From: Prochlorococcus sp. AG-449-P16
GTDB taxonomy: Bacteria > Cyanobacteriota > Cyanobacteriia > PCC-6307 > Cyanobiaceae
Direction of reading: 5' to 3'
Length of the DNA stretch: 46,086 nt
Assembly: GCA_003212175.1 (NCBI GenBank)
Contig: QCQN01000005.1
Location: forward strand, 1 to 46,086
The notes under the pieces were generated by a model, which was given only the letters and a program-made list of their open reading frames with translations, ran no database searches and was not told the origin of the DNA. The position numbers were made by a program, and so were the translations under genes. Numbering within the stretch: the first letter of the stretch is position 1; every line of letters starts with the position of its first letter. This document shows, one piece after another, positions 9,290-25,423 of the stretch.

Positions 9290-10840
9290 TTAATATTTTT
9301 TTGTTATTAATTTCCATGGATAAAGATTATCTGAATCGTAAATAATTTCGTACATTTCTTCATCTATTGAGGTATTTTTAGGAATAGAAGCCCAAGCATA
9401 TTCATTTATATTTAAATCTTTAATATTGCTTATGCCATTGCCTAGATTTGGCATAAATAAAGCTAATTTAATAATTCTCTTAGTGGCATTTTCATTACTT
9501 AATCCATCTGTAATAATTTCTACTTTTCTATTTTTTAAATTTTCTTTATAGATGACTTTTTGAGCCTCTATTCTTATTTCTTTGGCTCTGTCATTAAATA
9601 TACCTGCTTGAACTAAGGTCGCGCACATAAGATAAGGACCAATCATAACTAAAATAAATTTATCTTTTATGTTTTTAGTAAAGTATGCAGATAACCAAGA
9701 AATCGAGAAAATACTAATGCATAAGTTTATCAAAATATATTGATTACTATCGACACCTATTGTTGTTTTATTTATACCAATATATATAAGCGATATTAGG
9801 AATAAAGTAGGTATCAATAAGAAAATAATTTTATTTAATATTTTTATTAATTCATTTCTCTTTGTAAAAATATAATCTATGCCAAGAAATGCATTTATAG
9901 ATGTTAATGAAACTATTTGAAGGGGATAATAGGGCGTTTTAGTAGAAAATAAACTGAGCAAAAATAATATTATAAGAGGATATTTGAAAAGAAAAAAATG
10001 TGTTGTCTTATCTTTAGTTTTTGAAGCTTGAAATAAACCAATAAATAGAAATATACTCCAAGGTAAAGTATTAACGCTGAAATTCCATAAGTAATAATAA
10101 AAAGGATTTGTAAATACATTATTCTCAGATAGGCTTAATAGCTTTGAGTAAAGGCCACTATAAGTTTGCCATCCGTTGATCAAAATTATTTGAATACTCC
10201 AAATTGAAAAAGGTATAAATCCAATAAATAAGCCTAACCAAAAATAGAAATTTCTTATTATCTTCGTTTTCCAAAGAAACGGAAATATAGTTAATAAAGG
10301 AATAATAACCAAGTAAGTTTTTAACATTACTGACAGTCCAATCCAAACTCCAGCAAGTATGAAAAAAATTATATTTCCTTTTTTATGAGATTTAACTGAA
10401 GCATATATACCTAAAGTTGTTAGTGAAGCGAATATTAAATCTTGTGTAGCCATATGAAAATAATTAATCCATAAATAAGTTGTAGAAAGGATTAAAGGCG
10501 AAATTATTGCCATAGGTTTATCAGTAAGTTCTTTATGTAATTCATAAGTTAGAAATATCATTAACAAGCCAAAAATTATTGAGGGGATATAGATTGCAAA
10601 TAAATTTTCACCAAATAATTTTTGTGAAAGAGCTATAAGAAATTGAATTCCTATAGTTCTATCATCAACAACAGCACCCCATTTCATAGGGGTAATCCAA
10701 TTATTATTTTTTATAATCCATTTAGCTTGAAGAGCATATATTCCTTCGTCATAAGCAATTAAGCTTCTTTCACCAAAATATAAGATTACTGGAGTTAAGA
10801 AAAAAAATTTTTTAGCGTAAAAAAAAAGTTTATTTTTCAA
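9290..10840 (-). CDS. GT39/ArnT-like polytopic membrane glycosyltransferase
   Basis: This 516-residue protein has an N-terminal membrane span followed by the acidic first-loop motif AYDEGIYALQAKW (D31, E32). That motif marks the PMT/ArnT (GT-C) superfamily, which uses polyprenyl-phosphate sugars as donors on the outer face of the membrane. About ten further hydrophobic helices and a roughly 100-residue C-terminal soluble part are visible. It probably decorates a glycan or lipid acceptor. No polyprenyl-phosphate sugar synthase is obvious nearby, so its donor must be made elsewhere or by one of the glycosyltransferases here. Gaps of about 85 bases separate it from gmd and pseI on the same strand. 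Confidence 0.75.
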   Translation of the reverse strand: MKNKLFFYAKKFFFLTPVILYFGERSLIAYDEGIYALQAKWIIKNNNWITPMKWGAVVDDRTIGIQFLIALSQKLFGENLFAIYIPSIIFGLLMIFLTYELHKELTDKPMAIISPLILSTTYLWINYFHMATQDLIFASLTTLGIYASVKSHKKGNIIFFILAGVWIGLSVMLKTYLVIIPLLTIFPFLWKTKIIRNFYFWLGLFIGFIPFSIWSIQIILINGWQTYSGLYSKLLSLSENNVFTNPFYYYLWNFSVNTLPWSIFLFIGLFQASKTKDKTTHFFLFKYPLIILFLLSLFSTKTPYYPLQIVSLTSINAFLGIDYIFTKRNELIKILNKIIFLLIPTLFLISLIYIGINKTTIGVDSNQYILINLCISIFSISWLSAYFTKNIKDKFILVMIGPYLMCATLVQAGIFNDRAKEIRIEAQKVIYKENLKNRKVEIITDGLSNENATKRIIKLALFMPNLGNGISNIKDLNINEYAWASIPKNTSIDEEMYEIIYDSDNLYPWKLITKKY

Positions 10841-10923: not shown

Positions 10924-11973
10924 TTATTTTATTTTCTCTAAACTGAACCAAGTTACAGCCTCTGCTCTTTCAACATTCTTTGATAATTTCATTCCAATAA
11001 TTTCATCAAAGTATTTTGGATCTATTCCATAACCAGGTCTTATTCTTTTTATATCATTTTTTGTAAGAATATGACCTTTGGGCAAATCTTTTACAAAGTA
11101 AATTGATCTTCTAAATTTTTTATTGACATTTTCTGATTCCGGTCTTTCAAAATTCTTAGTTCTAGAAGCTTCAAAAGAGAGGTCGCATTCTTTTACTAAA
11201 GATTGAAACTTTTGAGGGGTTATTGAAAAGCTAGAATCAGGACCACATTCTTTATTATCTAATTTAAAGTGTTTTTCTATAGCAGTTGCCCCCAAAGCTA
11301 TTGAAAGTGAAGCTGCCATATTAGAGGTAGTATGATCAGATAAACCTATCTCTACATTAAATTTTTCTTGTAAAAATTTAATGTCACCTAATTGATAATC
11401 AGTAATGTTGGCAGGATATTTACTTATGCAATGAAATAGAAGTATTTGTTCATTTCCCTCTTTAATGCAGCAATTAATTGCATCTTCTATTTCTTTTGGA
11501 TTAGACATCCCTGTTGAGATAAGCATTGGCTTATGTTTTGAGGCAGCATATTTGATTAGAGGTATATCAGTAATCTCAAATGATGCAATTTTATATGCAG
11601 GCGTATCTAACTCTTCAAGAAGATCAATTGCCGTTTCATCAAAAGGTGTAGAAAAAATTGTTAATCCAATTTTTTTTGAAAATCTGAAAAGTTCTTCATG
11701 CCACTCATATGGTGTTTGAGCCATTTTATAAAGTTCATAGAGATTATATCCTTTCCAAATACCTTCATTTATTAAGAAATCCTTTTTAAAAGAATTTAAA
11801 GTCATTGTATCTGGAGTGTAAGTTTGTATTTTTACGGCACTTGCTCCTGATTCTTTTGCTGCTTTTATTGACTCTTTAGCTCTTTGGATATCGCCTCCAT
11901 GATTAGCTGATAATTCAGCTATTATGTATGGTCTTTGACATTTACCAATTTTTCTACCATTGATTTCAAGCAT
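10924..11973 (-). CDS. pseI: Pseudaminic acid synthase (NeuB family)
   Basis: It condenses a 6-deoxy-2,4-diacetamido hexose with phosphoenolpyruvate to give a nonulosonic acid. The sequence follows Campylobacter PseI, from memory, more closely than NeuB or LegI: RPYIIAELSANHGGD near 18-32, AVKIQTYTPDTMTLNS, TPYEWHEELF, AYKIASFEITD, EVGLSDH-type IEIGLSDHT and LGATAIEKHF. A C-terminal SAF/antifreeze-like domain covers about 285-349 (RSIYFVKDLPKGHIL). Length is 349 residues, as expected. It starts three bases after the tandem-GNAT gene and ends the nonulosonate operon. Confidence 0.88.
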   Translation of the reverse strand: MLEINGRKIGKCQRPYIIAELSANHGGDIQRAKESIKAAKESGASAVKIQTYTPDTMTLNSFKKDFLINEGIWKGYNLYELYKMAQTPYEWHEELFRFSKKIGLTIFSTPFDETAIDLLEELDTPAYKIASFEITDIPLIKYAASKHKPMLISTGMSNPKEIEDAINCCIKEGNEQILLFHCISKYPANITDYQLGDIKFLQEKFNVEIGLSDHTTSNMAASLSIALGATAIEKHFKLDNKECGPDSSFSITPQKFQSLVKECDLSFEASRTKNFERPESENVNKKFRRSIYFVKDLPKGHILTKNDIKRIRPGYGIDPKYFDEIIGMKLSKNVERAEAVTWFSLEKIK

Positions 11974-11976
11974 TTA

Positions 11977-12837
11977 TCAGTTTGATAGTTTATATGTTAC
12001 TTGGATTTTTATTAAATCAAGGGAATCAATTATTTTTATTAAATCTTTATTTGAATTAGCAATATTAATAAAAAAATAACTAGGAATAAGAGATTTAACT
12101 TCTTTTTGTGGTGAAAAGTTTTTTAGAATAAAATTAAACACTTCTTTAATAATAGATTCAGTGGGATAATTTATGTTAATTCCTATGGAGTTATCAAGTT
12201 TAAGATAAAATGAACCAATTGCCTCTCCAAATAAATAAACTATATACCACTTAAAATAAGGATTATTTTTTATAAAGATCCTATGTTTTTCATAACTGGG
12301 CAAATTCTTGTGACTTATATTATGCTTTCTTTTTTTTAATAATTCGTACAGTATTTCGCAGTCTGAATAATCAACTTTTTTGAATTTTAATTCTTCTCTT
12401 TTTTCCATTACAACAATATTATTAAATTCTTTAATCACATCAAATCCTGCTGAATAGAATAATCTTTTACTCATAATATTTTCTTTTTTAATCTCGGCTA
12501 TTAAAATACTTTTAATTTTTTTTTTGTACTCGCTAATAACATTTTCTAAAAATAACAGTCCAATTCCTCTGCCTCTAAAATCAGGATTTATATTTATGGA
12601 AATTTTGGATTGATTTAGATTTTTTTCATAATCAAGTCTGCAGACTCCTAATTTATTCAAGTTCAATTCAGCGATATAAAAATCAATATTTGGATTATTT
12701 ATCGCATTTTTAAACCAAATTAAATGTTCCTCCTGTGAAATCTCGTTTTGTTTAATAGACATTTTTCTAGTTTGTAAATCATTTCTCCATTTAAATAAAT
12801 CTTTAGAGTCTTCTTTTATAATCTTTCTTATTCGCAT
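11977..12837 (-). CDS. PseH-like N-acetyltransferase with a second C-terminal GNAT-like half
   Basis: Residues 1-145 form a complete GNAT domain. It opens with the PseH-like MRIRKIIKEDSKDLFKWRND, continues EEHLIWF, and has the acetyl-CoA loop NPDFRGRGIGLLFLEN and the NIMSKRLFYSAGFDV end. PseH acetylates the 4-amino group made by PseC. Residues about 150-286 (ELKFKKVDYSDCEILYELL onward) resemble the start of another GNAT-type domain with a WYIVYLFGEAIGSFYLKL strand pair, but no clear acetyl-CoA loop. At 286 residues the protein is nearly twice normal PseH length. The second half is not PseG, which has a GT-B fold. It sits between the fusion gene and pseI, as expected for PseH. Confidence 0.72.
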   Translation of the reverse strand: MRIRKIIKEDSKDLFKWRNDLQTRKMSIKQNEISQEEHLIWFKNAINNPNIDFYIAELNLNKLGVCRLDYEKNLNQSKISININPDFRGRGIGLLFLENVISEYKKKIKSILIAEIKKENIMSKRLFYSAGFDVIKEFNNIVVMEKREELKFKKVDYSDCEILYELLKKRKHNISHKNLPSYEKHRIFIKNNPYFKWYIVYLFGEAIGSFYLKLDNSIGININYPTESIIKEVFNFILKNFSPQKEVKSLIPSYFFINIANSNKDLIKIIDSLDLIKIQVTYKLSN

Positions 12838-12923
12838 TTATTGATCTTACAGTTAATTAAGCAAAGAAACTTTTTTTTAGTTTACATTATTTGGATTACA
12901 TAGTTACTCAAAAAGTTATTTCC

Positions 12924-14951
12924 TTAATTAAGTCTTTCAAATCCATTATGGCAGAGTGGATGTTCAATAAATTTATTAACATCATAACCATTTTCGCATT
13001 TATTGATTAATTCAAAAACCTCATTAAGTCCATTTGCATAACTATCAAAAATTGTAGAATTATGCGTTGTTGCTAAGTAGCAACTAGTTGATGCGAGAAA
13101 CCCCTTTTTAAGCATTTCTTGGGTAATTAATGTTTTGTATTCTCTATTCTTTTGGGGAAATGCAAATCCGCTTAAAGCTTTTATTCCGTATATTTTAATT
13201 TCTAAATTATTTATACGTGCAAGTTCTAACCATATTTTTCTAAGTTGTTCTCCTTTCTTTGTTATTTGTTCCCAGCTTTTTTCTCTTTTCATTATTTCTA
13301 AAGTCTTTAGAGCCGCGGTTGGTCCTATACGTTCAGTCCAAAAAGTGCTGCTAATAAAAGTTGTTTGGGCTGCTTCCATGATTGATCTTTTACCAATAAT
13401 TGAAGTTATTGCATATCCATTCCCTAATGCCTTTCCGAAAATTGCCATATCAGGAAAAATATTATATTTTTTGTGAAGACCTCCATATGTTTCTCTAAAA
13501 CCGGAAGTACATTCATCAAAAATTAAAATAATATTTTTTTCATTACAAATTTTTCTTACTTCTTCTAAGAAACCTTCTTTTGGAGGTATTGTTCTTTCCA
13601 CTTCCATTTTTATAGCCGCTAAATCATATTTACTGACAATACTTTTTAGCTGATCTAAATTATTGTAACTAAAGGGTTTGATGCTCCCCTCAAGAGATTT
13701 TGGAACACCATTAGGTTCTAATCCTTTAATTAGATGTTCCTCAAGCCCCTTTTTATTATTTAAGTTACTTGCAAGATACCAATCATGCCAACCATGATAT
13801 CCACATATCGCTACCGTGTCCTTACCTGATGCAGCCCTCGCAATTCTTATACTAATTGCATTAGCTTCACCTCCTGTTCTCGCAAATCTAACCATTTCAG
13901 CCCAAGGATGTAATTCAATTAATTTTTCTGCTAATAAAACCTCTTCAGGACAATTAAGACTTGATAAATTACCGTTTCTTACATTAGCTGAAACCACTTC
14001 GTCTATTTCAGGTTGGCAATATCCCAAAGAATTTGTACCAACTCCCATCAAAGCCATATCAATAAATTTATTTTTGTCTAAGTCCCATATTTCACAACCT
14101 TTAGCTCTAGAAAAATAGGCAGGCCATTTATCTGGCAAAAATAATTCAGGCCTTTTTGATAAAAGCATACTTCCTCCTGGAATTACTTTCTTTGCTCTTC
14201 TCCACAATTTTTGTGATTGATCCAAATATGCTCCTTCATTTCTTTTGTATCTGGAATTAATTCTAACTAATTCAGGATTATTCTTAAGGATTTTAATTAT
14301 TTCGTGCCAAGGTGTGTCAATATCTACCTCATAATTTAAGAAAAGCTGTCTCGCTAAAAAAAGATCTTCGTATTCATCTATTGTTACCCTAAAGTCTTCA
14401 AAATTTTTTTCGTAAGTTAAAGAGCCCACTTTAAAATTTCCAGATTCTCTTATCCATGGAGTAACATGCTCTCTACTTTTTTTGTTAATACATTTTTTGT
14501 TTGCAATTAAAAGTGCTGCCTTCGAAAAAATTTCTAAATCAAATCCATCTGGAAGACTTGGAGGATAACAATTAGAAAGATAATCAAATTCATCAGAATT
14601 AAATTTATTTACTAAATCTGAAATTAGTTCGTGATCTAAAAAAGGACAATCTGCAGTTATTCTTATAAAATTATCAGCATCTGATACTTCCGCTGCTAAA
14701 CAAAATCTACTTAAAACATCATTTTCACTTCCTCTTATAACTATTAAATCTAATGCTTTTGCCTCATCCGATAATTCATTATCAATTGAATTATCTGTTG
14801 TAGCCAAAATTATATTATTTATCAAATTACTTTTTCTAATTCTTTCAACAAGAATTTCTAATATGGATTTACCATTTATTTCAGCAAGAACTTTTTTGGG
14901 TAATCTTTTTGATCCTAGTCTTGCTTGGATAATAATATCAATTTTTTTCAT
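12924..14951 (-). CDS. SpsF-like cytidylyltransferase fused to a GSA-type class III aminotransferase
   Basis: This is a 675-residue two-domain protein. Residues 1 to about 230 are an SpsF-type sugar nucleotidyltransferase: IIIQARLGSKRLPKKVL at 6-22, RITADCPFLD at 97-106, and VTIDEYEDL near 189. It probably activates the nonulosonic acid with CTP, replacing PseF. Residues about 245-675 are a PLP enzyme like glutamate-1-semialdehyde aminotransferase: GGEANAISIR, GYHGWHD at 394-400, LIFDECTSGF with D479, and the Schiff-base lysine K507 in FGKALGNGY. Both active sites look intact. The chain is continuous with no frameshift. The substrate of the aminotransferase half is unknown; it may modify the same sugar. 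Confidence 0.85.
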   Translation of the reverse strand: MKKIDIIIQARLGSKRLPKKVLAEINGKSILEILVERIRKSNLINNIILATTDNSIDNELSDEAKALDLIVIRGSENDVLSRFCLAAEVSDADNFIRITADCPFLDHELISDLVNKFNSDEFDYLSNCYPPSLPDGFDLEIFSKAALLIANKKCINKKSREHVTPWIRESGNFKVGSLTYEKNFEDFRVTIDEYEDLFLARQLFLNYEVDIDTPWHEIIKILKNNPELVRINSRYKRNEGAYLDQSQKLWRRAKKVIPGGSMLLSKRPELFLPDKWPAYFSRAKGCEIWDLDKNKFIDMALMGVGTNSLGYCQPEIDEVVSANVRNGNLSSLNCPEEVLLAEKLIELHPWAEMVRFARTGGEANAISIRIARAASGKDTVAICGYHGWHDWYLASNLNNKKGLEEHLIKGLEPNGVPKSLEGSIKPFSYNNLDQLKSIVSKYDLAAIKMEVERTIPPKEGFLEEVRKICNEKNIILIFDECTSGFRETYGGLHKKYNIFPDMAIFGKALGNGYAITSIIGKRSIMEAAQTTFISSTFWTERIGPTAALKTLEIMKREKSWEQITKKGEQLRKIWLELARINNLEIKIYGIKALSGFAFPQKNREYKTLITQEMLKKGFLASTSCYLATTHNSTIFDSYANGLNEVFELINKCENGYDVNKFIEHPLCHNGFERLN

Positions 14952-14960
14952 TGAGGAGAA

Positions 14961-15854
14961 TTATTTATAAATCCATTTTCTTGGATCTATGTCATTAATA
15001 TTATCCCATCTGAAATCACTGTAATTAAAGTTTGTATTGATTAGTTTTTCAGAGTTCCAACTTTGATTTATAGTTTTAAGTTCTAAATGATTTGTAACGC
15101 CGAATAATATTAATTCTGGAAAGTCTAAATTTTTAATAAAAGAGATAGCTGAATCCATTAAACTCAATTTTCTTGATCGAACTTCACTTTCATAAAGATT
15201 ATGATGGCTCAAGAATGATTTATTAATATAATTAGGCCATTTAATTGCTTCTTGAAGTAAAAGTCCCTGAAGAAATATGCTTCTTATATGTATTGAAATA
15301 TCATATTTTAAAAGTTTTTTAATAAATGAATCCCTCAGTAATCTTTGATCATATATTGAAATAGGCATTTGTACTACATCTATTTCTTCTAAGGGGATAC
15401 CTTCTAAATCAGATTCTTCATAAATAGATATTCCTATTCTTTTAATTCTTCCTTGAGACTTTAGTTGATTTAACCATTCTAATAATAGTTGACTATTTAC
15501 TTTCTTCAAATCATTTGAATTATGTAATAAGTAAGAGTCAATATTATTTCTTTTTAAATTTTTAAGTGTTTCTTTAAAATTTTCTTCTAAAGCAGTAATA
15601 CTTTTATCTGTATATGAATCTTTTATTCCAGAACTAAATTTTGTTATGAATTTTAAACTTTTATTTTTTAATTTATTTCCTATTAGTGATTCTGAATTCC
15701 CATAACTATTCGCGGTATCAAAAAATGAGATGTTGTAATTCAATGCATTTTCAAGAATTAAATCAATTTCTTCATTAGAGGGTTTGCCAAATTGATTTGT
15801 TATTCCATAGTTACTACCAAATTGAGCGGTACCTAAACATAATTGAGCTTTCAT
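14961..15854 (-). CDS. Aldo/keto reductase of the nonulosonate operon
   Basis: This 297-residue TIM-barrel oxidoreductase begins LCLGTAQFGSNYGI, typical of aldo/keto reductases in sugar clusters. The catalytic tetrad is present: D46 and Y51 in FFDTANSYGNSE, K72 in FITKFSSG and H111 in SYLLHNSND. It would use NAD(P)H to reduce or oxidise a sugar carbonyl. Members of this family often sit beside SpsF-like and NeuB-like genes, but their step is not settled. It begins one base after pseC ends and stops nine bases before the fusion gene, so it is an integral operon member. Confidence 0.82.
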   Translation of the reverse strand: MKAQLCLGTAQFGSNYGITNQFGKPSNEEIDLILENALNYNISFFDTANSYGNSESLIGNKLKNKSLKFITKFSSGIKDSYTDKSITALEENFKETLKNLKRNNIDSYLLHNSNDLKKVNSQLLLEWLNQLKSQGRIKRIGISIYEESDLEGIPLEEIDVVQMPISIYDQRLLRDSFIKKLLKYDISIHIRSIFLQGLLLQEAIKWPNYINKSFLSHHNLYESEVRSRKLSLMDSAISFIKNLDFPELILFGVTNHLELKTINQSWNSEKLINTNFNYSDFRWDNINDIDPRKWIYK

Positions 15855-15855
15855 A

Positions 15856-17049
15856 TTATGAGGTTAATTTTTTTAGCAATAAAGATATTCTTTTTAGTTC
15901 AGAATTAGTTATTTCAGGATATATAGGAAGAGAAAATGCTCTAGATGCGTAATCTTCAGATTGAGGAAAATCTCCCTTTTTAAAGCCAAGTTTTTTATAG
16001 TACGGTTGAAGGTGAACTGGTGAATAATGTAGTTGAACCCCAATATTATTTTCTCTCATTCCGGTAAAAACCCTTTTATGAATTGATTTATTTTTTAACT
16101 TTATAATTGCTAAATGAAATGCAGAATAAACATTATTTGGAACTTCTATTAAGTTTAATGTTGAATAATTTAATAACTCTTTATACTTATGATGAATTAT
16201 ATTTCTTTTAGCAACTATTTTTTCAAGTCTTTTTAGTTGACTTAAGCCTAAAGCAGCTTGCATCTCATTCATTCTGTAATTGTAACCCAAGTCTTGCATT
16301 TCATATTTCCATTCTCCTTCACTTTTTTCTTCAAATCTTTTTTTATCTTTAATTATGCAATGAGAACGTAAGTCTCTCATTTTTTGCGCATATTTTTGAT
16401 TATTAGTAACTGAAATCCCACCTTCTCCAGTAGTTATTATTTTTACAGGATGAAAACTAAAAATTGATATATCACTATAGCGGCAATTCCCAACTGGTTT
16501 ATTTTCATACTTTCCACCTAAAGCATGGCTAGCATCCTCAATAATTGAAAATCCATACTTTTTCGAAAGTTTATAAATCTCTTTCATTTCGCAGCTGCTT
16601 CCACCAAGATGAACTGCTACTACAATCTTGGGCAATTTCTTTTCTAATTGTGCCTTTTTTAATTTTCTTGTTAATGCATCTATTGAAATTAGAGCTGAAT
16701 CTTTATCTATGTCAATAAAATCAACTTTAGCGCCACAATAAATGCCACAATTTGCAGATGCTACGAAAGTTATAGGAGATGTCCATAAATAATCTCCTTT
16801 TCCAAGACCTAACGCTAAACAAGCTATATGTAATGCACTTGTAGCACTATTTACAGCAATTGCATGTTCTACATTAACTTTCTTTGTTATTTCTTTTTCA
16901 AATTCTTCGAGTAAGCTTCCTTGAGTTAAGAAGTCACTTTTCATTACTTTAACAACTGCTTTAATATCATCCCGATTTATATACTGCTTGCCATAAGGTA
17001 TATAATTTGAATTTTTTTTTAAATTTTTAAAAAGGTTTAAAATCTCCAT
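15856..17049 (-). CDS. pseC: UDP-4-amino-4,6-dideoxy-N-acetyl-beta-L-altrosamine transaminase
   Basis: This DegT-family PLP aminotransferase converts the PseB product to its 4-amino sugar using glutamate. PseC-type landmarks are YIPYGKQYINRDDI near 17-30, KSDFLTQG at 38-45, VNSATSALHIACLALG, IEDASHALG at 170-178 and the PLP lysine in FSFHPVKIITTGEGG (K203 counting from this start). Length is normal at about 397. The ATG at 17049 is preferred; an in-frame TTG lies one codon upstream. Either way the start lies inside the 3' end of pseB, a 23-base overlap that implies translational coupling. Confidence 0.9.
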   Translation of the reverse strand: MEILNLFKNLKKNSNYIPYGKQYINRDDIKAVVKVMKSDFLTQGSLLEEFEKEITKKVNVEHAIAVNSATSALHIACLALGLGKGDYLWTSPITFVASANCGIYCGAKVDFIDIDKDSALISIDALTRKLKKAQLEKKLPKIVVAVHLGGSSCEMKEIYKLSKKYGFSIIEDASHALGGKYENKPVGNCRYSDISIFSFHPVKIITTGEGGISVTNNQKYAQKMRDLRSHCIIKDKKRFEEKSEGEWKYEMQDLGYNYRMNEMQAALGLSQLKRLEKIVAKRNIIHHKYKELLNYSTLNLIEVPNNVYSAFHLAIIKLKNKSIHKRVFTGMRENNIGVQLHYSPVHLQPYYKKLGFKKGDFPQSEDYASRAFSLPIYPEITNSELKRISLLLKKLTS

Positions 17050-18043
17050 CAATGTGTTTTTTAATTAAGTTTCTAATTTCTTTTATAGTCAAGAATTTTT
17101 GGTTTTTACCAGAATTATACTGAAATCCTTCTGGTACTTTTTTGCATAGAGGAAATACCTTATTATGTTTTCCTAGATGATATTCAGAATTAGGGAGAAT
17201 TGCATAGAAATCACCGATGTCTATAGTTGTAAAAGATTCTGCAGTTGTTATTAAGTCTTCATGGACTTTTTCTCCTGGCCTAATTCCTATAATTTTGGTT
17301 TCGCAACTTGGACCTATAGCTTCTGCAACATCAGTAATTTTATAGCTGGGTATTTTGGGAACGAAAATTTCTCCACCAATTGAATTTTTTAAGGCCCATA
17401 AAACCATATTTACTCCTTCGATTAAAGAAATATTAAATCTTGTCATGAATTTAGAAGTTATGGGTAAAATTTTTTCGTTTTTTTTAATTTTATTTAGAAA
17501 AAAAGGAATTACAGACCCTCTTGATCCCATAACATTCCCATATCTGACAGTTGAGAATTTAATTTCTCGATTCCCTTTAATATTATTAGCTGCAACAAAT
17601 AATTTGTCAGCACACAATTTTGTAGCCCCGTAAAGATTTACTGGTCCTGCAGCCTTATCAGTGCTTAATGCGACAACATTTTTTACATCTGAATCTAGGC
17701 ATGCTTGTATAACATTTTCTGCTCCTAAGACATTAGTTTTAACAAATTCCATTGGATTATATTCTGCTGCAGGAACTTGTTTAAGTGCAGCTGCATGTAC
17801 CACTGTATTTACATTTTCTAGTGCTCTTTTAAGTCTATCTTTGTCTCTTACATCTCCAATAAAGAATCTTAATTGAGGAAATTTATTCTCAGGATATAGT
17901 TGTTGTAATTCCCATTGTTTAAGTTCATCTCTACTATAAATAACAACCCTTTCGACATTTTCCTTTGATAATATTTCTTTTATAAAAGCTTTCCCGAAGC
18001 TTCCAGTTCCACCAGTTATAAGTATTTTTGTTGAATCGACCAA
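17027..18043 (-). CDS. pseB: UDP-GlcNAc 4,6-dehydratase (5-inverting)
   Basis: The enzyme makes UDP-2-acetamido-2,6-dideoxy-beta-L-arabino-hexos-4-ulose, the first step of the pseudaminic pathway. Residues 8-18 contain the cofactor loop LITGGTGSFGK. The residues that distinguish PseB/FlaA1 are present: D129-K130 in LSTDKAAGP and Y138/K142 in NLYGATK. RYGNVMGSRGSVIPFF and GEIFVPKIPS are also family-typical. It has 338 residues. The start is a TTG at 18043; the frame is open further upstream, but I see no better start codon before the stop at 18110-18112. It is the first gene of the nonulosonate operon. Confidence 0.93.
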   Translation of the reverse strand: MVDSTKILITGGTGSFGKAFIKEILSKENVERVVIYSRDELKQWELQQLYPENKFPQLRFFIGDVRDKDRLKRALENVNTVVHAAALKQVPAAEYNPMEFVKTNVLGAENVIQACLDSDVKNVVALSTDKAAGPVNLYGATKLCADKLFVAANNIKGNREIKFSTVRYGNVMGSRGSVIPFFLNKIKKNEKILPITSKFMTRFNISLIEGVNMVLWALKNSIGGEIFVPKIPSYKITDVAEAIGPSCETKIIGIRPGEKVHEDLITTAESFTTIDIGDFYAILPNSEYHLGKHNKVFPLCKKVPEGFQYNSGKNQKFLTIKEIRNLIKKHIDGDFKPF

Positions 18044-21269: not shown

Positions 21270-22112
21270 TTATTGAATTTTCAAATCTTTTTGCTTTTTA
21301 ATTAAATGATCAATTTCTTTAAGAGGTATAAGAAATTCCTCCAACTTTGATAAGGGTAAAGCTGATGGCCCATCACATTTTGCAATTTCCGGATCATTAT
21401 GTGACTCTAAAAATAAACCTGAAATTTTTGTAGCTATACCAGATTTGGCTAAATCAAATAATTGAGATCTTCTTCCACCTGATACTTCCGAACTTGCTTC
21501 TCTGCATTGAAGTGAATGGGTAACATCAAAAACTATTGGTAAATCGCCACAAGATTTCTTCATGACACCAATTCCTAAAAAATCTACTACTAAATTATCG
21601 TAACCGAATGATGTACCTCTCTCACATATGAGTAAATCCTGTTTCCCATATTGTTTAAACTTATCAACAATATTAAACATTTGGCTAGGACTAATAAATT
21701 GAGGTTTTTTGATATTAATAACACAAGTACTTTTCGCCATAGCTTTAATTAGTGAAGTTTGCCGAGCTAAAAAAGCTGGTAATTGAATTACATCACAAAC
21801 TTTTGATGCAATATCAACCTCATCTGGTAAATGAACATCTGAAATGATAGGAATATCTAATTTCTCTTTTATTTTAGAAAGAATTAAAATACCATCTTTT
21901 AGTCCAGGACCTGTATAAGAATTTATTGAAGATCTATTAGCTTTTTCATATGAAGCTTTAAAAACCAGATCTATATTTAATTTTTTACATACCTCCTGAT
22001 AATGTTTAGCAGCATATAGTGTTGAATCATAGTCCTCAAGTACATTTATTCCTCCAATTAAACAAAAATTTGTGCTATTCGAAAATCTAATATTTCCAAC
22101 AAAAACATCCAT
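21270..22112 (-). CDS. kdsA: 3-deoxy-D-manno-octulosonate 8-phosphate synthase
   Basis: It condenses arabinose 5-phosphate with phosphoenolpyruvate to give KDO 8-phosphate. Strong KdsA signatures are [13 protein letters not shown] near 18-30, [62 protein letters not shown] and [16 protein letters not shown]23 occupies the position where metal-dependent KDO8P synthases carry a cysteine, so it should be a metal-independent class I enzyme. Length, 280 residues, is normal. It is divergent from the kdsD-kdsC-kdsB operon with a 188-base gap. Confidence 0.95.
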
Positions 22113-22300
22113 GTAAAAAAAAAATTATTAAATTTAAGAATAACAAATTTGAATATACTATTTTAAATATTATTAAGCATCAATTTAATTAAATAAATAA
22201 ACTTTTATTTTATGATTTAAATAACTTTAAATAAAGAGTATTTTTAATACTTTTCTATTTTAAAATTGATTTACGCATAATATTATTTCTAAGATTTTTT

Positions 22301-23287
22301 ATGATCTCTTTATATCAATGTATGAAAGAGGAATCTGCGGCAATTTTAGCGGCTGCAAAAAGATTAAATAATGATCAAGTTGAAAAAATTTTAGTATCGA
22401 TGGAAAGATGCTTTAAAAATAAAAAGAAATTAGTTTTAACTGGGGTAGGTAAAAGTGGCATAGTCGCTAGAAAATTGGCAGCTACATTTACTTCAATCGG
22501 ATTTACTTCTATTTATTTAAACCCTTTGGATGCTCTTCACGGTGATTTAGGAATAGTGGATAAAAATGATTTATGTTTTTTGCTTTCAAATAGTGGAGAA
22601 ACTCAAGAGTTGCTTCAATTGATTCCTCACTTAAAGAGTAAAGGCTCTATTCAGATTGGAATATTGGGAAATCTCTATTCGACTTTGGCTAATCAGAGTA
22701 ATTTTTTATTGGATGCAAGTGTAGACAAAGAAGTCTGCCCTTTGAATCTTGCTCCAACAGCAAGTACTACTGTTGCGATGGCCATTGGGGATGCCTTAGC
22801 AGTTGTATGGATGGAAAAAAGAGGCATATCAAGAAAAGATTTTGCAGTTAATCATCCTGCAGGCAAACTTGGTAGAGAGCTGACATTAAAAGTTTTGGAT
22901 TTAATGAAACCATCTAATCAACTAAAAACATTATTCAAAAACTCGACTCTCTATGAGGTAATCTCGGAGCTTACACGAGGCTCAATTGGTTGTTGTTTAA
23001 TTAAAGAGAGATCTAAAGAAAATAAATTGCTTGGTTTAATTACAGATGGAGATTTGAGAAGGGCTTTGAAAAATCATGAACCAAGTAAATGGGAAACTCT
23101 TATGGCAAATGAAATAATGACAAAGGATCCTATAGTAGTTTCCTATGAAAAATTTGCAATTGAAGCGCTTGAATTAATGGAAAAAAATATAAAAAAACCT
23201 ATTTCTATACTTCCAGTAATAGGCAAGAACTCAGAATTTATTGGAATCTTAAGACTTCATGATCTAATACAAGCAGGATTAAGTTGA
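22301..23287 (+). CDS. kdsD: D-arabinose 5-phosphate isomerase
   Basis: It isomerises ribulose 5-phosphate to arabinose 5-phosphate for KdsA. A SIS domain (about 25-190) contains LTGVGKSGIVARKLAAT, LHGDLGIV, SNSGETQEL and ASTTVAMAIGDALA. HPAGKLGREL and a tandem CBS pair (about 205-328; ITDGDLRRAL and GILRLHDL) follow. Length, 328, matches KdsD/KpsF. The same order as in kps capsule loci and in E. coli kdsD-kdsC is kept. The TGA stop overlaps the kdsC ATG by one base. Confidence 0.94.
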   Translation: MISLYQCMKEESAAILAAAKRLNNDQVEKILVSMERCFKNKKKLVLTGVGKSGIVARKLAATFTSIGFTSIYLNPLDALHGDLGIVDKNDLCFLLSNSGETQELLQLIPHLKSKGSIQIGILGNLYSTLANQSNFLLDASVDKEVCPLNLAPTASTTVAMAIGDALAVVWMEKRGISRKDFAVNHPAGKLGRELTLKVLDLMKPSNQLKTLFKNSTLYEVISELTRGSIGCCLIKERSKENKLLGLITDGDLRRALKNHEPSKWETLMANEIMTKDPIVVSYEKFAIEALELMEKNIKKPISILPVIGKNSEFIGILRLHDLIQAGLS

Positions 23288-23868
23288 TGAGTTTAGGTTA
23301 TTTATCAATTAAATCAATATATTATGAATTAAAGTGGAGAAGCATTTTAAAAAGATTAAAGAAAATTGAAGTATTAATTTTGGATGTTGATGGAGTTCTA
23401 ACAGATGGTGGATTATGGTTTAATAGTTCTGGTGATATTTTGAAGCGATTTGACGTTAAAGATGGATTAAGTTTAAATTTACTTCAGGAGATAGGAATTG
23501 AGATTGTTCTTATAAGTGGAGGTCAAAGTAAGTCTACAGAAGCAAGAGCTCTTCAATTAGGGATTAAATACTATTTTTTTGGGGTTATGAATAAATATCA
23601 AAAATTAAAAGATTTTCAAAAGGAAAAAGGGGTTTCAACTGAAAAATGTGCATATATTGGAGATGATATTAATGATATAGTTGTGAGACCATTAGTTAGT
23701 CTTTTATTTACGCCTAATAATGCTTCAAAATCCTTAATAGCAATTTCTGACTTAAGACTTCAAAATAATGGAGGTTTTGGAGCTATAAGAGAACTTGCAG
23801 AAAGAATTTTAATCTCAAGGAGATTATGGAAAAACTTTTCAAAAAATGGCTGGGTAAAAAAAAATTAG
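23287..23868 (+). CDS. kdsC: KDO 8-phosphate phosphatase (HAD superfamily)
   Basis: It removes the phosphate of KDO 8-phosphate. The HAD nucleophile motif ILDVDGVLTDGG places D33 and D35 correctly. ISGGQSKSTEARA is motif II and YIGDDINDI is motif III, which is typical of small cap-less C0 HAD phosphatases like KdsC. An N-terminal extension of about 25 residues precedes the core. I choose the ATG at 23287, which overlaps the kdsD stop as TGATG; a TTG three bases earlier is also in frame. Length is 193 residues. Confidence 0.92.
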   Translation: MSLGYLSIKSIYYELKWRSILKRLKKIEVLILDVDGVLTDGGLWFNSSGDILKRFDVKDGLSLNLLQEIGIEIVLISGGQSKSTEARALQLGIKYYFFGVMNKYQKLKDFQKEKGVSTEKCAYIGDDINDIVVRPLVSLLFTPNNASKSLIAISDLRLQNNGGFGAIRELAERILISRRLWKNFSKNGWVKKN

Positions 23869-23885
23869 TAAATTTTATGTAAACA

Positions 23886-24611
23886 ATGAAAGATAAAGCT
23901 CAAAAAGTCATCCCTATTTTTATTGGTTATGATTCCAGAGAAAGAGTTGCTGCAAATGTTTTAATTGATAGTCTCTATCAAAAAGCAACTCACCCTTTAT
24001 CAATAACTCCTTTACTAAAAAATCAACTTGTTAAACAAGGATTTCATAATCGAGAAAAAGATAAAAACCAAAGTACAGAATTTTCCTTTACAAGGTTTTT
24101 AGTCCCTTATCTTATGAATTTTGAGGGATGGGCGATATTCATGGATTGTGACATGTTATGTAGAGCGGATATAAAAGAACTATGGGATCAAAGAGACGAT
24201 AATTATTCTTTGCTATGCGTAAAACATGATCATATACCTAAAGAAAGTAGGAAGTTTCTTGGAGAGAAACAATTACCATACCCAAAAAAAAATTGGAGTT
24301 CTTTGATGCTAATGAATTGTAAAAAATGTAAGGTATTGACTATCGATTACGTAAATAATGCATCAGGTCTAGATCTGCATAGGTTTAATTGGTTAGAAAA
24401 TGAAAAAGAGATCGGCGATATAAAAGGATTAGGTTGGAATCAACTTATAACATCAGAAAGTCTCCAAAACTTTAAAAAGAAAAACTTAAACCCCGAGTTG
24501 ATTCACTGGACATTAGGAGGACCATGGTTTAAAGATCAGAGAAATTTAGATGATGAATTTGTAATTGAATGGTTTAATGCTAGAGAGGAAGCTATGAGAT
24601 TATGGGACTAA
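23886..24611 (+). CDS. GT8-like glycosyltransferase embedded in the KDO operon
   Basis: This 241-residue protein starts IPIFIGYDSRERVAANVL, and has SFTRFLVPYLM near 67-77 and a metal-binding DxD motif in IFMDCDMLCRADI (D87, D89), as in GT-A glycosyltransferases of the GT8 type. WNQLITS and IHWTLGGPWF near the end resemble the GT8 C-terminal HxxGxxKPW region. It lies 17 bases after kdsC, and kdsB begins inside its last codons, so it is in the KDO operon and may act on a KDO-containing acceptor. Donor and acceptor are unknown. Confidence 0.68.
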   Translation: MKDKAQKVIPIFIGYDSRERVAANVLIDSLYQKATHPLSITPLLKNQLVKQGFHNREKDKNQSTEFSFTRFLVPYLMNFEGWAIFMDCDMLCRADIKELWDQRDDNYSLLCVKHDHIPKESRKFLGEKQLPYPKKNWSSLMLMNCKKCKVLTIDYVNNASGLDLHRFNWLENEKEIGDIKGLGWNQLITSESLQNFKKKNLNPELIHWTLGGPWFKDQRNLDDEFVIEWFNAREEAMRLWD

Positions 24612-25423
24612 ATAAGATACAAAAAACTATTATTGCAGTTCCTGCCAGATTGGATTCGTCAAGATTACCTAAGAAAGTTCTTCAAGATATTAACGGTAAA
24701 ACTATGCTTCAAAGAGTTTTAGAACAATGCAAAAAAGTAAAAATTCCCTCAGAAATATTTCTTTGTACAGATTCAAAAAAATTATCTGAAATAGCTGAAA
24801 ATATTGGTGTAAAGGTATACCTTACAGAAAGGGACTGCAAATCTGGGAGCGAGAGAATTGCTTCAGTAATCCCAGAACTTGTAAAAAGTTCTTGGGAGGG
24901 ATTTAATCAAAACAATTATTTAGAAGAAGATAATAAATTGGAACAAACATTAGTAATTAATGTTCAGGCTGATCAACCATTTTTAGATCCAAATATCATA
25001 AAAGAAATGCATCATTTCTTTTTATCCCAAGATATAACTCCAGAAGTTGTTACTCCTATTTACAAGTTAAATAAAAAGGATATTCATAACTCTTCTGTAG
25101 TTAAAACTTTAATAAATAAAAATGGAGAAGCAATCTATTTTTCTAGATCTGCTTTGCCTTATATTAGAGATGTCGAAAAAAAAGATTGGTATAAGCAATA
25201 TAATTACTTAGGTCATGTTGGTATTTATGGATATAGAGCTGATATTTTACATAAATGGTTTAATTATCCTTTTTCAAATTTAGAAAAATCTGAAAAACTA
25301 GAACAATTAAGATTGATTGATTCTGGAGTTAAAATAAATACGTTTGAAGTCGAAGGAGATTTTTTGTCTATTGATACAACTGAGGATTTATTAGAGGCTA
25401 GAAAATGGTTAAAAAAAAAGTAA
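24602..25423 (+). CDS. kdsB: CMP-KDO synthetase (3-deoxy-manno-octulosonate cytidylyltransferase)
   Basis: It activates KDO with CTP. Family motifs are TIIAVPARLDSSRLPKKVL near 9-27, CKSGSERIA, VINVQADQPFLDPN near 117-130, YFSRSALPYIRD, HVGIYGYRADIL, LEQLRLIDSG and FLSIDTTEDL. Length, 273, is slightly above the usual 245-255, with an insertion near 98-115 (SWEGFNQNNYLEEDNK). It overlaps the preceding gene by 10 bases and so is translationally coupled. The HVGIYGY and SERIA motifs separate it from the SpsF-type domain at 12924. Confidence 0.94.
   Translation: MGLNKIQKTIIAVPARLDSSRLPKKVLQDINGKTMLQRVLEQCKKVKIPSEIFLCTDSKKLSEIAENIGVKVYLTERDCKSGSERIASVIPELVKSSWEGFNQNNYLEEDNKLEQTLVINVQADQPFLDPNIIKEMHHFFLSQDITPEVVTPIYKLNKKDIHNSSVVKTLINKNGEAIYFSRSALPYIRDVEKKDWYKQYNYLGHVGIYGYRADILHKWFNYPFSNLEKSEKLEQLRLIDSGVKINTFEVEGDFLSIDTTEDLLEARKWLKKK

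Follow-up and report, generated by a model that had tools for sequence, protein, structure and literature searches.

Within 46,086 nucleotides of Prochlorococcus sp. AG-449-P16 (contig QCQN01000005.1, positions 1-46,086, called the window below), six minus-strand genes at 10924-18043 form what appears to be an operon for a pseudaminic-type nonulosonic acid, a surface sugar akin to sialic acid, in which PseG, the enzyme that removes uridine diphosphate (UDP) from the sugar before PseI, was not found. We lean towards reading it as an operon for a nonulosonate activated with cytidine monophosphate (CMP), in which GNAT2, the C-terminal half of a tandem GNAT protein, takes the place of PseG and the side chain of the sugar is tailored. 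Since GNAT2 and PseG never co-occur in the examined genomes, GNAT2 may do the job of PseG. The pathway itself is of a known kind; the PseG substitute would be new. A first-pass annotation of this DNA had suggested that PseG lies elsewhere, that a different enzyme frees the sugar, or that the product is a modified nonulosonic acid; we incline to the second of these, with GNAT2, which that annotation had not singled out, as the candidate within the operon.

Gene content and proposed pathway

The order and coordinates of the six genes in the first-pass annotation agree with six open reading frames (ORFs) and with their Pfam and NCBIfam matches. They are listed here, with the two halves of the tandem GNAT protein given separately.

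17027-18043, minus strand: PseB, UDP-N-acetylglucosamine (UDP-GlcNAc) inverting 4,6-dehydratase (TIGR03589, 503 bits; cut-off 407.75)
15856-17052, minus strand: PseC, 4-aminotransferase (TIGR03588, 524.3 bits; cut-off 423.5)
14961-15854, minus strand: aldo/keto reductase (AKR) of 297 amino acids (aa) (Pfam PF00248, Aldo_ket_red, 97.4 bits)
12924-14951, minus strand: fusion of a cytidylyltransferase with a GSA-type class III aminotransferase, 675 aa (PF02348 and PF00202)
12391-12837, minus strand: GNAT1, PseH-like acetyltransferase domain, N-terminal half of the 286-aa tandem GNAT (TIGR03585, below cut-off)
11980-12390, minus strand: GNAT2, C-terminal half of the tandem GNAT, proposed PseG substitute (GNAT fold, outside the named families)
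10924-11973, minus strand: PseI, pseudaminic acid synthase (TIGR03586, 450.6 bits; cut-off 340.25)

Three enzymes of the canonical CMP-pseudaminic acid pathway, PseB, PseC and PseI, thus each exceed their curated NCBIfam cut-offs. The PseH profile TIGR03585 reaches 53.3 bits against the 286-aa protein (cut-off 93.1), which is still the best NCBIfam match of that protein, and GNAT1 retains the Arg-Gly of the coenzyme A (CoA) loop. In the fusion, Pfam places CTP_transf_3 at residues 6-221 and Aminotran_3 at residues 278-619, so that the cytidylyltransferase half spans about residues 1-232 and the GSA-type half about 243-675; the CTP_transf_3 domain is present, and PseF is not in the best 25 of the fusion's 77 NCBIfam matches.

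In the route that we propose, PseB, PseC and then the PseH-like GNAT1 would lead in the usual way to the UDP-diacylamino sugar, and GNAT2, replacing PseG, would free the 6-deoxy-diamino sugar from UDP for PseI. The cytidylyltransferase domain of the fusion, in the place of PseF, would activate the product to its CMP form, and the reductase and the fused class III aminotransferase would act on the side chain, where the most likely changes are an oxidation and an amination at C8.

PseG in the window and its relatives

PseG was not found in the assembly of the window (G000), where the profile TIGR03590 gave one match of 26.5 bits (cut-off 153.55), from an ORF that we read as MurG; the 286-aa tandem GNAT protein gave no TIGR03590 match at E ≤ 0.001. 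Since this assembly is 64.4% complete, the absence of PseG from it is weak proof alone, and the relatives decide. In a sample of 300 genomes of the window's family (picocyanobacteria), PseI scored above its cut-off in 32, and PseG was present at E ≤ 1e-10 in 20, 16 of them above cut-off. Among the 32 PseI genomes, 17 had PseG (13 above cut-off and 4 weaker) and 15 had none. A rescan with TIGR03590 at E ≤ 10 of 17 genomes (these 15, G003 with a weak PseG, and a Comamonadaceae metagenome-assembled genome (MAG) described below) gave nothing above cut-off. PseG was likewise not found in GNAT2-bearing relatives of 96-100% completeness, including G782, whose operon has the layout of the window plus a PIG-L-type gene and a formyltransferase gene. 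Judged from the near-complete relatives, the missing PseG is a true gap, and the comparison of the operon across strains that the first-pass annotation had proposed finds the absence of PseG and the presence of GNAT2 recurring together.

It is very improbable that PseG is present but went unseen, through incomplete assembly or strong divergence. The completeness of G000 leaves room for such a gene, and diverged PseG copies of 48-92 bits do occur in other PseI genomes; however, complete relatives are without PseG too, the best TIGR03590 match stays at or below 36.1 bits across the 20 GNAT2 genomes, and an iterated local PseG profile found no match in their retrieved pse loci.

Mutual exclusion of GNAT2 and PseG

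A comparison of gene neighbourhoods showed GNAT2, either as a protein of its own of about 140 aa or as part of a fusion, repeatedly in loci without PseG and never in loci with it. A GNAT2 profile built from seven copies and run on the same 300 family genomes returned eight intact copies, all in genomes positive for PseI and negative for PseG, and one broken remnant; the copy in G135 was picked up by the profile though it was not among the building sequences. The remnant (L119:1468-1719, contig G116:C5) adjoins what looks like a gene for a chlorophyll-binding protein, and its genome gave no PseI match at E ≤ 1e-60.

After this pattern had been seen, a set of 171 genomes of the window's genus was searched, in which 18 genomes had PseI above cut-off, 16 of them new. 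Two of the 16 carried PseG (G826 with 253 bits, and G723 with 92 bits, below cut-off and adjoining pseI), and neither of the two had GNAT2. GNAT2 was present in 12 of the 14 without PseG (best PseG match 36.1 bits), the others being G689, a 50% complete genome where a DUF218 gene separates pseB from pseI, and G824, where a contig end cuts pseI. All seven of the new PseI genomes that are at least 90% complete had GNAT2 and none had PseG above cut-off, which contradicts the earlier suggestion that PseG lies elsewhere.

When the 48 PseI genomes are pooled, 19 have PseG, 20 have GNAT2, 5 have a particular DUF218 subfamily, 4 have none of the three, and no genome has two together. For PseG and GNAT2 (19 and 20 of 48), zero overlap has a chance of 6e-7 on the assumption that the genomes are independent, and they are related. 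On a PseI tree of 49 sequences (the 48 genomes and the Comamonadaceae MAG), the three states require 9 changes; the starred branches imply that GNAT2 changed state no fewer than 6 times and PseG no fewer than 4 times.

The exclusion is also seen when gene families are counted up to 9 kb from pseI in 42 loci (21 with GNAT2, 16 with PseG and 5 with DUF218). The count took in families found in at least 4 loci and left out the PseG genomes G223, G292 and G298, whose neighbourhood was not retrieved, and the loci without a candidate. GNAT2 had by far the strongest enrichment in loci without PseG (19 of 21 GNAT2 loci versus 0 of 16 PseG loci, p 1e-8), and PseG was found in 0 of 21 and 15 of 16, respectively. 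Next in rank were a mixed cluster with GNAT2 among its members (p 0.001) and PseB (15/21 versus 4/16, p 0.008).

Beyond the cyanobacteria, GNAT2 was met in the Comamonadaceae MAG, one of four loci returned by a contig scan, the other three being from Prochlorococcus sp. single cells. Its cluster comprises pseB, pseC, a cytidylyltransferase and pseI, with GNAT2 on the opposite strand, and no PseG above cut-off was found in this MAG (21 bits). Among 378 genomes of its phylum, not selected for PseI, the MAG itself was the only one with GNAT2, and GNAT2 was not found in the plasmids, phages and viral contigs searched.

Fold and conserved residues of GNAT2

The C-terminal half of the tandem protein has no Pfam match above cut-off, and four copies of GNAT2 that were tested gave weak and mixed matches. 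Against solved structures, the sequence returned chance-level rows only, the best at E 0.023 (a ribosome biogenesis protein). An AlphaFold model made from five sequences has the GNAT fold (pLDDT 87.4, pTM 0.81), so the first-pass label "tandem GNAT" is right by fold. The fold matches listed are acetyl- or acyltransferases and the MJ1062 domain, with Z up to 14.3: 3exn at 14.3, the MJ1062 domain (3eo4) at 13.9 and PseH (4ri1) at 11.7. No GT-B protein is among the matches listed, which is evidence on fold and not on function.

The motif [RQ]xxGx[GA], which we take to be the CoA-binding motif of the GNAT fold, is found in 0 of 21 GNAT2 sequences versus 14 of 22 GNAT1 (PseH-like) domains. Invariant in all 21 GNAT2 sequences are Ser35, His45, Phe48, Tyr54, Trp57, Tyr71, Asn76, Asn118 and Gln139 (alignment numbering). 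The invariant His-x-x-Phe among them has the same spacing as His49 and Phe52 of PseH, which contact the UDP-sugar in the published model (PMC4363471). GNAT2 resembles a PseH-type domain from which the usual CoA loop has been lost and in which a nucleotide-sugar pocket may have been kept. Its model is similar to PseH and to the GNAT domain of MJ1062, and differs from both in the missing CoA-loop motif.

Gene neighbourhood of GNAT2

Of the 19 loci that hold both GNAT2 and pseI, 12 have the two on one strand and no more than 250 bp apart. The order in G804 is pseB-pseC-cytidylyltransferase-GNAT2-pseI. GNAT2 is fused with a PseH-like domain in the window, G782 and G732, and with a formyltransferase in G294 and G697. 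In other marine picocyanobacterial genomes the PseH-like domain is fused with PseG; there, as here, a UDP-removing enzyme or a candidate for one is joined to a PseH-like GNAT, but the partner in the window is GNAT2 rather than PseG. Several loci (L145:659-2052, L146:6917-8917 and L150:11485-12830) also have neighbouring genes for a PIG-L-type deacetylase and a formyltransferase close to pseI, a pair that suggests replacement of an N-acetyl group by an N-formyl group.

These neighbourhoods bear on a rival explanation, in which GNAT2 acts as another N-acyltransferase, whose substrate could be the amine that the aminotransferase makes, and an unlinked or housekeeping hydrolase removes UDP. We consider this unlikely, although it deserves serious attention. 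The GNAT fold would fit it, and tandem GNAT proteins exist (2wpx is among the fold matches listed). In 17 of the 19 loci, however, a PseH-like GNAT (GNAT1) or a formyltransferase also lies within the retrieved stretch, so the acylation step looks covered there, and the CoA motif is missing from every GNAT2. Since the GSA-type domain is near pseI in only 6 of 21 GNAT2 loci, GNAT2 does not track an extra amine, and the exclusion between PseG and GNAT2 would be left unexplained. The remaining two loci, in G679 and the MAG, have no other recognised acyltransferase at the thresholds used, so GNAT2 could be the acyltransferase there; G679 has a 39-bit formyltransferase-like match at a contig end.

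The closeness of GNAT2 to pseI would also suit a scheme in which a free sugar is not needed, PseI or the fusion accepts an intermediate still linked to UDP, and GNAT2 serves as an accessory subunit. We regard this as improbable, since the PseI sequences of GNAT2, PseG and DUF218 loci are intermixed on the tree, and no PseI group therefore coincides with the loss of PseG.

Other candidates for UDP removal

Release of the sugar by a hydrolysing epimerase of the NeuC/LegG type seems to us extremely improbable. NeuC is above cut-off in 6 of the 20 picocyanobacterial GNAT2 genomes, but also in 4 of the 19 PseG genomes, and we rejected it as the UDP remover because it has no match at E ≤ 1e-20 in G679, G775, G782 and G039, which carry GNAT2 and are 96-100% complete. 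The PIG-L deacetylase near pseI was set aside as a substitute, as its cluster is also found in 7 of 15 PseG loci.

The DUF218 subfamily is a possible second PseG substitute. Among 80 genomes searched (the 48 PseI genomes and 32 without PseI above cut-off), scores of 132 bits or higher came from five, namely G027, G055, G065, G129 and G689, all of them without PseG and GNAT2; four of the five served to build the profile. Its sites are:

L074:10842-11423: DUF218 subfamily
L082:7987-8565: DUF218 subfamily
L081:9208-9792: DUF218 subfamily
L138:5794-6366: DUF218 subfamily
G065:C1:648234-648809: DUF218 subfamily, with an internal stop in the match

Matches of 27-36 bits occur in six more genomes, that of the window included, and a search of the subfamily against solved structures by sequence found none. 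Beside DUF218 in the pse operon of G129, a protein of metallo-beta-lactamase fold (L081:8033-9205) is a further hydrolase candidate there. A 331-aa ORF in another sugar cluster of G026 gives a partial 24-bit PseG match. Among the papers listed by searches of an open-access library, none concerned a PseG substitute.

The reductase and the fused aminotransferase

The first-pass annotation had the reductase and the GSA-type aminotransferase occupying the space of PseG, which the counts do not bear out. The GSA-type domain is near pseI in 6 of 16 PseG loci (versus the 6 of 21 GNAT2 loci), and the AKR in 4 of 16 PseG loci versus 6 of 21 GNAT2 loci; at such similar frequencies, neither was retained as a PseG substitute. 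Full-length homologues of the fusion exist in 10 other genomes of the 300, and four carriers of it (G279, G200, G186 and G283) have PseG less than 1 kb from the fusion.

The two activities appear instead to travel together as a tailoring module. Of 21 AKR loci, 18 have a GSA-type domain no more than 4 kb away and on the same strand, although this domain was the reason for retrieving 12 of the 21 (L089, L091-L101). Both activities are also found alongside PseB where the locus has no high-scoring PseI (for example L091, L093 and L094), so the pair is not restricted to pseudaminic acid. In the pse locus of G136 (L071:11924-14313), an adh_short_C2 dehydrogenase, a CTP_transf_3 protein and an aldo/keto reductase are adjacent, and the GSA-type domain is absent from that locus; the swap of this dehydrogenase for the aminotransferase of the window points to a ketone at C8 that would undergo reduction in the one and amination in the other. 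The aminotransferase half of the fusion matches class III enzymes, including entries named C-6′ aminotransferase (7lld), and the reductase has no match to solved structures by sequence at E ≤ 1e-10.

By analogy, the module perhaps aminates C8. The acid 8-amino-3,5,7,8,9-pentadeoxynonulosonic acid is known from the lipopolysaccharide (LPS) of the marine bacterium Flexibacter maritimus (review PMC3210612). No paper assigning genes to 8-amino nonulosonic acids was among those listed in a literature search. The modified nonulosonic acid of the first-pass annotation is plausible as a separate matter of tailoring.

Relation to known pathways and neighbouring genes

With the PseB-C-H-G-I-F pathway of Campylobacter and Helicobacter, the window shares PseB, PseC, PseI and a PseH-like domain, but no PseG was found in it, its cytidylyltransferase is fused rather than a stand-alone PseF, and it has an extra reductase. 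CTP_transf_3 and aldo/keto reductase domains also serve pseudaminic pathways in EpaA/EpaB of Acinetobacter prophages, which concern 8-epi-pseudaminic acid (PMC12053666), and in the Vibrio B9-25K2 cluster, where a fusion of CTP_transf_3/reductase type goes with a diacetyl pseudaminic-type acid (PMC7371886). Likened to EpaA by domain content, the window has the two domains on two proteins; unlike EpaA/EpaB, it has a class III aminotransferase and different fusions. No short-chain dehydrogenase of the EpaB type is among the six operon proteins, the dehydratase fold of PseB aside. By its domains, the dehydrogenase, CTP_transf_3 and reductase set of G136 corresponds to EpaA/EpaB in split form, and searches of phage records for EpaA homologues gave weak partial reductase matches or none.

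Adjoining pseI, at 9290-10840 of the window, is a PMT_2/ArnT-like glycosyltransferase, a possible transferase of the final sugar. Further along are genes for synthesis of 3-deoxy-D-manno-oct-2-ulosonic acid (Kdo), within 21270-25423 and all above their NCBIfam cut-offs:

21270-22112: KdsA
22301-23287: KpsF/KdsD-type isomerase
23284-23868: KdsC-type phosphatase
24602-25423: KdsB

The LPS of marine picocyanobacteria has been reported to be without Kdo.

Discussion

Beside the two loci without another acyltransferase, several points weigh against GNAT2 as the PseG substitute. We know of no activity for any GNAT2 and of no UDP-sugar hydrolase with the GNAT fold. Seven of the first eight intact GNAT2 sequences served to build the search profile. 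Only 4 independent contrasts exist on the starred branches of the PseI tree; none of them contradicts the exclusion of GNAT2 and PseG, yet a sign test does not reach significance (median p 0.5). The comparison of GNAT2 with GNAT1 profiles, although it aligns the His residues of both, is not significant (probability 0.7%, E 0.078, N-terminal half only). GNAT2 lies about 41 kb from pseI in G706 and on another contig in G135. In four PseI genomes (G026, G148, G271 and G824) all three candidates are missing; the contig in G148 is only 5.6 kb long, and the PseI of G271 is diverged. The C8 amination step of the scheme, for its part, rests on analogy.

More broadly, and tentatively, GNAT2 could be a new enzyme class, a PseH-type GNAT that gave up acyl-CoA binding, turned UDP-sugar hydrolase and has repeatedly displaced PseG. 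DUF218 would then be a second, unrelated substitute, and ocean cyanobacteria would possess at least three interchangeable solutions for UDP removal.

Taken together, GNAT2 is a testable candidate for a missing step of a surface-sugar pathway in abundant marine photosynthetic cells, whose surface sugars likely matter for phages and grazers. If the reading is true, GNAT2 would represent a new kind of enzyme, in which the fold of an acetyltransferase has come to hydrolyse nucleotide sugars, and the reductase and fused aminotransferase would offer a genetic handle on 8-amino nonulosonic acids. Genomes without PseG would then no longer have to be called incapable of making pseudaminic-type acids.

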